The translations under genes and the position numbers were made by a program. Below, in pieces: positions 34,695 to 61,844 of a stretch of 64,000 nt of DNA. Source of the DNA: Oscillospiraceae bacterium (lineage in GTDB: Bacteria; Bacillota; Clostridia; Lachnospirales; Lachnospiraceae); NCBI GenBank assembly GCA_021771715.1, contig JAETOO010000016.1:1-64000 (forward strand), written 5' to 3'. Positions within the stretch are counted from its first letter, which is position 1. Every line of letters begins with the position of its first letter. The notes under the pieces are model-generated. The model was not told the DNA's origin and did not search any database. It was given only the letters and a program-made list of their open reading frames with translations.

Positions 34695-34700
34695 ATCAAT

Positions 34701-35039
34701 AAGCAGGACGATAAGCCGGGTTATGTCGTGAATGGTCATCTATCTAGGCCTGCCGTTGCCGGCAGGCTCAAGCGACCTACCTGAAGCTGACGGGCAGCCA
34801 TATGCTTCGTTGCGGTCTTGCTTCGGATGGGGTTTACATATGCCCCTCCCGTTACCGGGAAGGCGGTAGTCTCTTACACTGCCCTTCCACCCTTACCGGC
34901 GTGCGCCGGCGGTTCATTTCTGTTGCACTGTCCTTGGAGTCGCCTCCACCGGATGTTATCCGGCATCCTGCCCTGTGAAGCCCGGACTTTCCTCGTCTGG
35001 CACCTTTCGGCCTGCCAGCCGCGACCATTTATCCTACTT
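34701..35039 (-). ncRNA. rnpB: RNase P RNA component
   Basis: Read on the minus strand, this ~339-nt region carries the conserved core of bacterial RNase P RNA, the ribozyme that trims tRNA 5' ends: GAGGAAAGTCCGGGC, CACAGGGCAGGATG, the GGTAAGGGTGGAA and GTAAGAGACTACCG segments, and near the 3' end AGATAGATGACC and ACATAACCCGGCTTA. Helix P1 forms from AAGTAGGA (35039-35032) and TCCTGCTT (34708-34701), which sets the ends. It has its own promoter and a terminator. Confidence 0.96.
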
Positions 35040-35054
35040 ATCTCAAGCAGTAGC

Positions 35055-58239: not shown

Positions 58240-59877
58240 TCAATCGCCGAGCATCGACTCGTCTGCCGAGTACACCTGTCTCTTTCTCGCCATCTCGTCG
58301 CTGTCGAGGTATTCGTCGTACGTCGTGATCTTGTCGATCAGCTTGCCGTTTGGCAGGATCTCCATGATCCGGTTGGCCGTTGTCTGGACGATCTGGTGGT
58401 CGCGGGAGGAGAAGAGCAGCACACCCGGGAACTTGATCAGGCCGTTGTTCAATGCCGTGATGGATTCCATGTCGAGGTGGTTCGTCGGCTCGTCGAGCAG
58501 CAGGATGTTCGCACCAGAGATCATCATCTTCGAGAGCAGGCAGCGCACGCGCTCGCCTCCGGAGAGGATGTTCAGGTGCTTGACGCCGTCCTCGCCTGCG
58601 AAGAGCATGCGCCCCAGGAAGCCGCGGACGTATGTCGCGTCCTTGATCTCGGAGAACTGCGTCAGCCAGTCGACGATCGTGAGATCCGTGTCGAACTCCT
58701 TCGTGCTGTCCTTGGGGAAGTACGCCTGGCTCGTCGTGACGCCCCACTTGAAATGGCCCTCATCCGGCTCGAGCTCCCCCATCAGGATGCGGAAGAACGT
58801 GGTCTTCGCGAGCTCATTTCCGCCGACAAACGCGACCTTGTCGTTGTGGCCGAGCGTGAAGGTGAGATTGTCGAGTACCTTGACGCCGTCGATCGTCTTG
58901 GAGAGGTTCTCGACCTGAAGGACCTCATTTCCGATCTCGCGGTTCGGGCGGAAATCAATGTACGGGTATTTGCGGCTCGACGGACGGATCTCATCGAGCT
59001 GAATCTTTTCCAGCGCGCGCTTTCGGGAGGTCGCCTGCTTGGATTTGGAAGCGTTGGCGGAGAACCGGGAGATAAATTCCTGCAGCTCCTTGATTTTCTC
59101 CTCCTTTTTCTTGTTTGCCTCCTTCATCTGGCGGATAATGAGCTGGCTGGACTCGTACCAGAAATCGTAGTTGCCCGCGTAGAGCTGGATCTTCCCGTAG
59201 TCGATGTCAGCGATCTGCGTGCAGACCTTGTTCAGGAAATAGCGGTCGTGGGAGACGACGATGACTGTGTTCTCGAAATTGATCAGGAACTCCTCGAGCC
59301 AGTTGATCGCGTCGAGGTCGAGGTGGTTCGTCGGCTCGTCGAGCAGCAGGATGTCCGGGTTGCCGAACAGCGCGCGGGCGAGCAGCACCTTGACCTTGTC
59401 ATTTCCGTTCATATCCTTCATCAAATTATAGTGCATCGACGGATCGATGCCGAGGCCGTTCAGCAGAGTGGCCGCGTCGGACTCCGCCTCCCAGCCGTTC
59501 ATCTCAGCAAATTCGCCCTCGAGCTCACTGGCGCGGATGCCGTCCTCGTCGGTGAAATCCTCCTTGGCGTAGATGGCCTCCTTCTCCTTCATGATGTCAT
59601 ACAGGCGCTGATTGCCCATGATGACAGTGTCGAGTACCGGAAACTCATCATATTTAAAGTGGTCCTGCTCCAGCACGGAGAGCCGCTGCCCCGCCGTCAT
59701 GACGATGTCGCCGTTCGTAGTCTCGAGCTGCCCGGATAAAATCTTGAGGAAGGTAGACTTCCCCGCGCCGTTCGCCCCGATGACCCCATAACAGTTCCCC
59801 TCGGTAAACTTAATATTGACATCCTCAAATAAAGCCTTTTTCCCTACACGGTAAGTTACATTGTTTGCACTGATCAT
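58240..59877 (-). CDS. ABC-F family ATPase (YbiT/YkpA type)
   Basis: A 545-residue soluble protein with two ABC domains and no membrane part; ABC-F proteins act on ribosomes. Domain 1 has GANGAGKSTFLKIL (near residue 35) and ILLLDEPTNHLDLDAI, with a shortened signature (MNGNDKVKVLLARALF) instead of LSGG. Domain 2 has an altered Walker A (GGNELAKTTFF) but a normal LSGGERVRCLLSKMM and DEPTNHLDMESI. These departures occur in this subfamily as I remember it. The inter-domain linker is basic and coiled (KEANKKKEEKIKELQEF). The ATG follows a weak site. A large palindrome lies 96 bp upstream. Confidence 0.9.
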   Translation of the reverse strand: MISANNVTYRVGKKALFEDVNIKFTEGNCYGVIGANGAGKSTFLKILSGQLETTNGDIVMTAGQRLSVLEQDHFKYDEFPVLDTVIMGNQRLYDIMKEKEAIYAKEDFTDEDGIRASELEGEFAEMNGWEAESDAATLLNGLGIDPSMHYNLMKDMNGNDKVKVLLARALFGNPDILLLDEPTNHLDLDAINWLEEFLINFENTVIVVSHDRYFLNKVCTQIADIDYGKIQLYAGNYDFWYESSQLIIRQMKEANKKKEEKIKELQEFISRFSANASKSKQATSRKRALEKIQLDEIRPSSRKYPYIDFRPNREIGNEVLQVENLSKTIDGVKVLDNLTFTLGHNDKVAFVGGNELAKTTFFRILMGELEPDEGHFKWGVTTSQAYFPKDSTKEFDTDLTIVDWLTQFSEIKDATYVRGFLGRMLFAGEDGVKHLNILSGGERVRCLLSKMMISGANILLLDEPTNHLDMESITALNNGLIKFPGVLLFSSRDHQIVQTTANRIMEILPNGKLIDKITTYDEYLDSDEMARKRQVYSADESMLGD

Positions 59878-59972
59878 TTAATACCTCATTTCTGCAACAC
59901 TCCGGCTTCGGCAGAGCATTACATTATTTCTATATTAATATTAGTTAGTTAAATTCGAGGCAACCACTGTCA

Positions 59973-60215
59973 GAGAAGATTGCAGAGGGGTCGGAAAGCG
60001 ACTATAGCGAGTCTTTACAAGTACTTGGGTCTCAGAAGGCCGGAGCATCTGTAAAAATCCTGCTTTCATGCAGGATTTTTAGCTGGCACTGTCTGAGCAA
60101 AATGTGCATCAGGCACATTTTGTGAGTTGCCAGCGGCAGATGCGCAGGCCTTCTGAGGCCCTTAGTACTTGTAGACGAGCGATCCGGAGCTTTCCGACCC
60201 CTCTGCAATCTTCTC
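59973..60215. repeat. 243-bp branched palindrome (candidate structured RNA or MITE)
   Basis: Terminal arms of 27 bp are perfect inverted repeats (59973-59999 against 60189-60215). Inside, tacaagtact (60016) pairs with agtacttgta (60164) and ctcagaaggcc (60031) with ggccttctgag (60147). gcatctg (60045) pairs with cagatgc (60137). The tip carries two hairpins: aaaaatcctgc/gcaggattttt (60053-60080), terminator-like on both strands, and gctggca/tgccagc (60082-60134) enclosing aaaatgtgc/gcacatttt. No clear target-site duplication or gene is seen. It fills most of the gap between the divergent ABC-F and MATE genes. Confidence 0.85.
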
Positions 60216-60398
60216 GTCCGCGCCGCTCAAACTGCAATTCCCATTGTACAGAATTCGCCGGAAATTGCAAGCGTTTTCTTGCTTTTCAGGATACAATGCG
60301 CTAAGATAGGGATGCGGAAGAATCCGAACGAAAAACGGCTGCCTTTTCATCATCCAGACCGGAAAGAGGCCGCCGAAAGAAATACGGGGGAAGAAAAA

Positions 60399-61844
60399 GT
60401 GGACAGCAGTGCAGAACAGAAGCAAACAAGTGAAACAATGAAAAACCAGGAAGCCCAGAGCCACGGAAAATGGAAGGCCGGTCCCGGGTATCGGAGAAAG
60501 GAGCCGACGATCGACATGCTGAACGGGCCGCTCGCGGGGAAGATTCTGATCTTCACGCTGCCTGTGATGCTGTCGGGACTCCTGCAGCTGCTCTTCAACG
60601 CGGCAGATATTATCGTGGTCGGCCGCTTTGCCGGGAGCAACTCACTGGCCGCGGTGGGCTCGAACGGTGCGCTGATCAACCTCATCGTCAATCTCCTGAT
60701 CGGTCTGTCGATCGGGTCGGCGGTGGCGGTTGGTTTCTATTACGGCGCAAACGACAAAAGACAGGTCAGCGAGACGATCCACACGTCGATCGCGGTGAGC
60801 CTGATCGGCGGCGTGATCTGTCTGGCGGCGGGGCTGCTCCTGAGCCCGGTGCTGCTGCGGCTGATGGGGACACCGGAGAGTATTCTCGGAAAGGCGGAGC
60901 TGTACCTGCGCATCTATTTTGTCGGCCTGCCGGCGATGTCGATTTTCAATTTCGGCAGTGCGATCCTGCGCGCGCTCGGGGATACGAAGCACCCGCTGTA
61001 CTATCTGACGACTGCCGGGGTGATCAATATCGTCCTGAATGTGATCTTTGTCGCGGGCTTTCACATGGACGTCGCAGGGGTCGCGATCGCGACGGTCGTC
61101 TCGCAGGTGGTGTCGGCGCTTCTGATCCTGCGCCACATGATGCAGATGGAGGAGGAACTGCGCCTGGAGTGGAAACGTGTGCGGATCTCGCGCTCGAAGC
61201 TGATCCGGATCGCGCGCGTCGGCATCCCGTCCGGCATCCAGTCGACGGTGTTTTCGATCTCCAATGTCCTGATCCAGTCGTCAGTCAACAGCTTTGGGGA
61301 GATTGCGGTCGCGGGCAATTCAGCCGCGTCCAATATCGAGAACTTTATCTATGTCGCGATGAACTCGTTCTACCAGTCGGCGCAGACCTTCACGAGCCAG
61401 AATGTGGGCGGACAGAAGTATGAACGCATCAACCGCGTCCTGTTTTGCTGCTGCGGGATGGTGCTGCTGACCGGACTGATTTTCGGAAACGGCGCCTATC
61501 TGTGCGGCCGGCGGTTGCTCGGCATCTATCTGCCGGGTGATCCGGAGGCAATCCGGTTTGGGCTGATCCGCATGAGCGTGATCGCTACGACATACTGCAT
61601 ATGCGGCCTGATGGACGTGCTCTCCGGCATGCTCCGCGGCATGGGAGAGTCGGTGCTGCCGATGATCGTCTCGATCGTGGGCTCGTGCCTGCTGCGCGTG
61701 GTCTGGATCTACACCGTGTTCGCACATAATCGCGAGCCGCTCGTGCTATACTATTCCTACCCGATCAGCTGGGTGCTGACCGGATCGGTGCATTTGCTGT
61801 GTTACTTCTATGTGAAGAAGCGGCTGGTGAAGCGGTATGTGTAA
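60399..61844 (+). CDS. MATE family efflux transporter
   Basis: A 481-residue, ~12-helix antiporter that expels drugs or metabolites using an ion gradient. LIFTLPVMLSGLLQLLFNAADIIVVGRFAG (near residue 50) is the family opening. FNFGSAILRALGDTKHPLYY and GIPSGIQSTVFSISNVLIQSSVNSFG mark the two pseudo-repeats. GTG at 60399 was chosen for the gggggaag site upstream. ATGs at 60312 and 60438 are alternatives, and earlier ones would add an unusual basic N-terminus. It faces the ABC-F gene across the palindrome. Confidence 0.9.
   Translation: MDSSAEQKQTSETMKNQEAQSHGKWKAGPGYRRKEPTIDMLNGPLAGKILIFTLPVMLSGLLQLLFNAADIIVVGRFAGSNSLAAVGSNGALINLIVNLLIGLSIGSAVAVGFYYGANDKRQVSETIHTSIAVSLIGGVICLAAGLLLSPVLLRLMGTPESILGKAELYLRIYFVGLPAMSIFNFGSAILRALGDTKHPLYYLTTAGVINIVLNVIFVAGFHMDVAGVAIATVVSQVVSALLILRHMMQMEEELRLEWKRVRISRSKLIRIARVGIPSGIQSTVFSISNVLIQSSVNSFGEIAVAGNSAASNIENFIYVAMNSFYQSAQTFTSQNVGGQKYERINRVLFCCCGMVLLTGLIFGNGAYLCGRRLLGIYLPGDPEAIRFGLIRMSVIATTYCICGLMDVLSGMLRGMGESVLPMIVSIVGSCLLRVVWIYTVFAHNREPLVLYYSYPISWVLTGSVHLLCYFYVKKRLVKRYV

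Follow-up and report, generated by a model that had tools for sequence, protein, structure and literature searches.

A mobile palindromic element of Lachnospiraceae whose folded core appears to be constrained after insertion, possibly as an RNA

What is the large branched palindrome that lies between an ABC-F gene and a MATE gene in a Lachnospiraceae genome: a transposable element, a structured RNA, or a regulator of one of its neighbors? The window referred to here is the whole analyzed stretch of 64,000 nt (contig JAETOO010000016.1, positions 1 to 64,000). An earlier note on this DNA described a 243-bp element closed by perfect 27-bp terminal inverted repeats, with further paired segments, two tip hairpins and pairing far beyond chance, all of which we found. 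Specifically, positions 59973–59999 pair with 60189–60215 without a mismatch, and these arms enclose interrupted helices, a three-way junction and the two tip hairpins (60053–60080 and 60097–60123). The 243 nt fold with −164.5 kcal/mol on the (+) strand (shuffle mean: −76.6; z = −18.4) and with −148.8 kcal/mol on the (−) strand (z = −17.9), and none of the 200 dinucleotide shuffles generated per strand folded as well. A chance local inversion was rejected on the basis of z-scores of about −18 on either strand and the 40 genomic places at which the element occurs (see below). No Rfam family reached its gathering score inside the core of the element in the window, where the two weak matches (E = 0.31 and 0.74) scored 21.6 and 24.5 bits compared with gathering scores of 55 and 54; at four loci of relatives, nothing was found within the core at E-values up to 0.5. 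Elsewhere in the window, a bacterial RNase P class A RNA was recognized at 34696–35040 on the (−) strand (305.8 bits).

In the source genome (G000; 4.18 Mb in 54 contigs), the element was found at 40 places dispersed over many contigs. Thirty-three of these align whole (alignment A1), which omits one partial copy (C41:16499) and six copies truncated at contig ends, some of which may be two halves of one copy. Six contigs (C5, C10, C36, C37, C41, and C43) end inside element copies, so that the repeat interrupts the assembly and the real number of copies may be different. The full unit measures 288–290 bp in the five copies with both ends and has the inverted repeats GTTACAGTTCAGCC at its termini. 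The 18-mer of the terminal inverted repeat (TIR), GTTACAGTTCAGCCAGCC, has 75 matches in the genome with ≤3 mismatches, compared with 1 and 2 for the reversed control. Target duplications were assessed in copies with both ends kept: an 8-bp duplication identical at 8/8 positions flanks one of five full-length copies, four of six short derivatives and, in a sister MITE family, one of 13 members, and at ≥7/8 positions the counts are one of five, five of six and five of 13. The remaining full-length copies agree at 6, 5, 3, and 1 of the 8 bases, the last three (i.e., three of the five) showing no clear duplication. The interior of the element holds no ORF of ≥80 aa, and one 100-aa ORF overlaps its right part. 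Because it occurs at 40 places, has GTTACAGTTCAGCC TIRs and shows 8-bp duplications at part of the young insertions, the palindrome in the window is a MITE, as the earlier note had proposed among its options. The element is a MITE by anatomy, with every sequence feature looked for being present except an autonomous partner: PF00872, the one DDE transposase family searched for, has no match in this draft genome.

Two further groups of elements share these ends. The short derivatives (49–141 bp; C41:17777–17917 [L066], L087, L088, L089, L090, and C2:168356–168404 [L079]) are internal deletions that keep the TIRs and, in most cases, both sides of the base of the outer helix; they look young because four of the six carry perfect 8-bp duplications. 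The sister MITE family of the source genome (L066:7775–8061 of C41, L084, L085, L086, L081, and others) has the same GTTACAGTTCAGCC ends around a different, modular interior of hairpin modules (86–391 bp), with 8-bp duplications in some members and, in many copies, a right end that reads GCGTCC just inside the TIR.

Another proposal made for this locus was a leader attenuator for the ABC-F gene. The element lies upstream of both neighbors (ABC-F gene at 58240–59877 on the [−] strand; MATE gene at 60279–61844 on the [+] strand; genes called with a simple codon-usage script), and the reported adjacency to the ABC-F gene is correct, although the gap to its start codon measures 95 bp rather than 96 bp. 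Some ABC-F genes are attenuated, which, together with this short distance, speaks for a cis-regulatory RNA. The evidence from the family points the other way and makes such a leader very improbable, since the 40 places have varied neighbors and copies sit in either orientation. Among the 33 of 40 places with both neighbors called, 12 lie between divergent genes, 20 between tandem genes (nine sense and 11 antisense) and one between convergent genes. A Pfam scan of 40 of the 47 genes whose starts face the element revealed varied functions with no evident shared function and three genes without a family; recurring neighbors (three AraC-type regulators, one each of the GntR, PadR, and PucR types, two histidine kinases, and three glycoside hydrolases) were noticed, with no enrichment statistic. 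In 43 flanks leading to a gene start, promoter-like scores were higher away from the element than into it (9.14 vs. 8.21; p = 0.0004); the 23 flanks leading to gene ends showed no difference (7.96 and 7.91). The copies thus show a tendency to lie ahead of promoters rather than inside leaders. The window copy has three 9-of-12 promoter-like matches compared with 0.7 expected; one of them falls in the stretch separating the ABC-F gene from the element and points toward the gene (59952–59923, [−] strand). The other two, both weak (9/12), read into the copy (59908–59936 on the [+] strand and 60270–60243 on the [−] strand).

One tip hairpin had also been likened to a bidirectional terminator, a suggestion that did not hold: the terminator scan returned 0 terminator-like sites at the window copy. 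Moreover, the A/U tracts of the tip hairpin are interrupted in four of the 33 copies of alignment A1 (L064, L063:8673, L035, and L036), and because these changes leave the helix intact, it is the pairing and not the U-run that is conserved.

With regard to genomic placement, the single convergent location (1/33) was considered as avoidance and dismissed, given that convergent gaps make up 6.6% of intergenic bases (P = 0.35) and 11.7% of gaps (P = 0.09) in the background. The excess of divergent gaps (12/33) has P = 0.0006 against their 13% share of bases, a background of 15 gaps only, and P = 0.010 against four of 22 control MITEs (six of 28 that lie in predicted ORFs were left out); over so small a background sample, we treat it as a lead.

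The ends proposed for the element, 59973 and 60215, are those of the inverted repeats and do stand as such, but the feature runs on beyond them. The core comprises ~257 nt from CCAC (59964–59967) to GTCCG (60216–60220), and what lies outside it are decayed TIRs. Rates along the element were counted as changes per site on a parsimony tree; this tree was built from 31 copies, the two lacking the 5′ arm being dropped. The parts of the window copy are as follows.

59948..59965, (+) strand: left TIR, decayed; 12/18 match to the family consensus GTTACAGTTCAGCCAGCC
59964..59972, (+) strand: 5′ foot CCAC-NNN-CA, the left core border; CCAC 0–3 and CA 0 changes/site
59973..59999, (+) strand: outer helix H1, 5′ arm, 27 bp; basal GAGAAG near-invariant, middle highly variable yet paired
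60000..60014, (+) strand: internal loop, 5′ side, with the CGAG of the symmetric CGAG/CGAG motif; nearly invariant, with facing GA steps
60053..60080, (+) strand: tip hairpin T (AAAAATCCTGC / GCAGGATTTTT); helix conserved rather than the U-run
60082..60134, (+) strand: second tip branch H5/H6; conserved UGUCUGAG ... GAGUUG internal loop, hairpin loop in GCAUCAGGC
60173..60188, (+) strand: CGAG internal loop, 3′ side (AGACGAGCGATCCGGA); from the alignment and per-site profile
60189..60215, (+) strand: H1, 3′ arm; terminates in near-invariant CTTCTC
60216..60220, (+) strand: 3′ foot GTCCG, the right core border; mean of 0.6 changes/site over alignment columns
60221..60238, (+) strand: right TIR, decayed; 9/18 match to the consensus GGTTGGCTGAACTGTAAC

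The element's own ends provide a built-in clock, against which the folded interior is nearly frozen. The left and right TIRs accumulated 9.1 and 12.7 changes per site, respectively, compared with 16.7 for random letters; because the TIRs were read at fixed offsets, small indels near the ends inflate their counts. In comparison, H1 accumulated 3.5 changes per site, the other paired sites 1.9, the 11 hairpin-loop sites 4.2, and the 39 internal-loop and bulge sites 0.87. The per-site profile drops inwards at both borders, from 8–15 just beyond GTCCG to 1–3 within it (at fixed offsets) and from 7–12 just outside CCAC to 0–3 within it, while the three bases that separate CCAC from CA are free to vary (7–12 changes per site). 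Across the 33 copies, the TIR match ranges from 35/36 to 7/36 (the right end being scored as the best of three offsets), and over this range the identity of the unpaired core stays at 0.88–1.00 and pairing at 0.95–1.00, with the exception of a value of 0.82 in a copy without the 5′ arm. Among 31 copies, TIR decay was related neither to loop identity (rho = −0.16, p = 0.40) nor to the pairs kept (rho = 0.15, p = 0.43), and it rose with the drift of stem sequence (rho = 0.60, p = 0.0003). Because the core stays intact while the ends of the element decay, these data suggest that the folded core is a working part, not debris. In the window copy, 21 of 36 TIR bases remain, unpaired consensus bases are kept at a fraction of 0.90, and none of the 96 pairs of the consensus fold is lost; its ends have decayed, its structure is intact, and nothing links it specifically to the ABC-F or MATE gene.

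Homologues of the core occur patchily across other Lachnospiraceae genera. Within the genus, covariance model R1 detected the core in four of 47 genomes including the source, with 16 rows in G043, five in G004 and three in G024; blastn with a G004 copy added further rows in G004 and G024. Among 397 Lachnospiraceae genomes, at least five, including the source, have the core (the others being G263, G265, G307, and G311), a lower bound because this search scored five candidates per genome under stricter filters. Deeper scoring with R1 gave 11 rows in G311, four in G265 and one in G263 (fragments included). A deleted core copy is identical in two different genera (L157 of G307 and L141:2850–2988 of G043), which suggests contamination of a metagenome-assembled genome (MAG) or very recent transfer. 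A first pattern scan of GTDB was empty, and a second returned 10 stretches, of which six Lachnospiraceae loci were confirmed by R1 (in the MAGs UBA7160, S26M_St_55_sub, SUG1588, and UBA3692); the other four (Leucobacter, a cyanobacterium, Halalkalirubrum, and Oscillibacter) had no R1 match and were taken as chance. A viral collection searched with two exact patterns, as well as phages and plasmids searched by blastn with the window copy, yielded nothing.

The relatives also differ in how the core is packaged. In G311, core units form divergent pairs ~225–330 bp apart around an AT-rich spacer, enclosed in a ~1-kb unit with A-type and B-type flanks and ends of about CTAAACAGCAAT. Nine loci there have a whole core unit: six show two core units (L172–L175, L177, and L180; the second is reduced or cut in two of these), L176 and L179 are single, and L178 begins near a contig end. 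G024 also has a pair (L132), and so, probably, does G004 (L138), where the second unit (E = 0.0013) is truncated at a contig end. Across species, the feet read approximately CAGCC...CGTCC as judged by eye, and the internal-loop motif of H5/H6 recurs.

The consensus fold on alignment A1 comprises 96 pairs, and 97.9% of its 3,166 base-pair cells form standard pairs, compared with 87.1% in shuffled alignments and 38–43% with slid partners. Two-sided changes occur in 56 of the 96 pairs (26.7 in shuffled alignments; 12–22 with slid partners). Both covariation beyond chance, which template switching can mimic, and conserved unpaired bases with defined borders, as expected of a structured RNA, were thus found in this family. 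The earlier note had treated dispersed copies as the mark of a MITE and covariation as that of a functional RNA, a dichotomy that breaks down because the two were found together.

Much of the covariation could, in fact, have arisen by template switching between the arms of the palindrome, a process that creates and repairs stems (PMC8794818). An ordinary MITE without a host function would then suffice, in which template switching keeps the stems, ectopic gene conversion homogenizes the interiors, and nothing is selected after insertion. The reconstructed changes are in keeping with such an account: ~169 are double Watson-Crick changes (78 in H1 and 92 elsewhere) compared with ~84 single steps from Watson-Crick to another kind, and the double changes in H1 comprise ~44 transversions and 34 transitions. 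Adjacent pairs also change together in excess, both in H1 (7 vs. 3.7 expected; 33 of 500 nulls as high) and outside it (10 vs. 4.6 expected; 3 of 500 nulls as high). Covariation alone is therefore no proof of selection, since this double-change pattern fits template switching between arms. However, correction between arms should erase mismatched internal loops, which are instead the slowest sites of the element (0.87 changes/site), and a U.G pair is retained in 29 of 33 copies. Gene conversion, in turn, predicts a smooth rise in divergence toward the edges, whereas at GTCCG the rate rises abruptly over a few bases and the loops of the central hairpins (4.2) vary more than the internal loops. 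The fold is also kept across genera. The slow loops and core borders are thus stronger evidence of selection than the covariation, and on these grounds we consider a purely mutational origin of the pattern unlikely.

If the fold is selected, in which form does it act? The (+) strand accumulated ~44 changes to G.U (12 in H1 and 32 elsewhere) compared with 25 to A.C (7 and 18, respectively), a bias that is modest and comes from copies that are not independent. By gene setting, the ratio of G.U to A.C is 22:6 in sense copies, 18:9 in antisense copies, 27:10 in divergent gaps and 3:4 in two other copies. These ratios hint at a role for the (+) strand of the element itself, independent of what its neighbors do, either as its own transcript or as a specific DNA strand. 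A cis-acting read-through RNA was also considered, and the failure of the G.U excess to reverse in antisense copies (18 vs. 9) is mildly against it. The conserved U.G pair sits well with a predicted RNA, as does the U-C of the tip loop, which is invariant in 26 sequences from five species; the two internal loops with facing GA steps (CGAG/CGAG and YGAG/CGAG) would form tandem G.A pairs, as judged by eye from the alignment.

The same strand asymmetry would fit single-stranded DNA through G.T versus A.C. attC sites and REP/REPIN hairpins conserve a structure with feet and unpaired bases while their stem sequence is free, and the core could likewise work as folded DNA, i.e., as a strand or extruded cruciform that a recombinase or DNA-binding protein recognizes, reading the feet and unpaired bases by sequence and needing the stems only to pair. 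Slow feet and internal loops next to free stems are consistent with this reading, which we regard as unlikely; so is the location of 12 of the 33 copies in divergent gaps, in which transcription from either neighbor is not expected to cover them. No general promoter signal leads into the element: promoter-like scores into the core over 33 copies were no higher than those of control directions, and the signal in the spacers of five paired elements was not clearly above shuffles. The absence of a shared promoter is the weakest point of the RNA reading. Matches to the Y1 transposase family (PF01797; RAYT/Y1) are present in six of the seven core carriers tested, but they are also present in five of eight genus genomes without a core match, amount to two partial matches in G000 and are absent from G004. 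Copies in tandem gene pairs show no orientation preference (nine vs. 11), which replication-strand specificity might have produced, and young copies have TIRs and 8-bp duplications, neither of which HUH elements are known to have.

On balance, comparison of the copies makes it probable that this is a mobile element with a selected, strand-specific core fold, for which we favor RNA over folded DNA and over a purely mutational account. A non-autonomous DNA transposon (a MITE of ~290 bp with GTTACAGTTCAGCC termini and an 8-bp duplication) carries the ~257-nt core, and the unit would be spread in trans by a transposase that acts on its TIRs. Once inserted, the core may go on functioning in a folded state, chiefly through its (+) strand and with well-defined feet. 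Its most likely form is a structured RNA produced at many loci, which would be bound or processed where the feet and internal loops are conserved. Selection on the core fold would explain why the mobility signals rot while the loops and pairing persist. The unrecognized structured RNA offered as one option in the earlier note gains support in part from the covariation, the frozen loops and the homologues in other genera, which the folded-DNA reading may also accommodate. A more specific proposal is possible but distinctly tentative: a class of mobile noncoding RNA genes of Lachnospiraceae, encoding a putative RNA of ~257 nt, may spread between loci and genera as the cargo of a small transposon, singly or as divergent pairs, with its hosts keeping dozens of copies functional even when the transposon ends have died.

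MITEs are often read as passengers and their hairpins as by-products of inverted repeats; here, the decaying ends make it testable inside one genome whether the fold of a bacterial MITE has a function of its own. If the RNA reading is true, Rfam would lack a large structured RNA that is present in dozens of copies in one genome and has a route for horizontal spread; if the DNA reading is true, the element would be a recognition hairpin that greatly exceeds attC and REP in size. The family is not described in the titles and abstract openings among the literature matches listed, which scarcely cover subscription journals.

Among known systems, attC sites and REP/REPIN hairpins resemble the core in their conserved structure, feet and unpaired bases and their free stem sequence, but they are much shorter, are tied to IntI or RAYT recombinases, and lack TIRs and 8-bp duplications. 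The large bacterial RNAs GOLLD, ROOL, and OLE (PMC12286853) share with the core a large, elaborate, conserved fold, whereas the core travels as a MITE and its Rfam matches are only weak and far below gathering scores. In the portion available of PMC2267715, bacterial stem-loop repeat families likewise appear as repeats, many of them intergenic, with conserved predicted structure, but in other organisms and with no analysis of mobility or of the period after insertion described there. Closest in anatomy are the prokaryotic MITEs with stem-loop transcripts, Correia/NEMIS, ERIC, and QMITE2, which, in the text available for them (PMC10969869, PMC2229807), are also short, multicopy, intergenic, TIR-bounded, and very stable in predicted folding; QMITE2 has direct repeats of 7–9 bp, compared with 8 bp here. 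Relative to these descriptions, the present element differs in its three-way junction with slow internal loops, in covariation across both copies and genera, and in a core whose rate of change is far below that of its TIRs. What sets it apart from other MITEs is the constrained fold that it carries as cargo.
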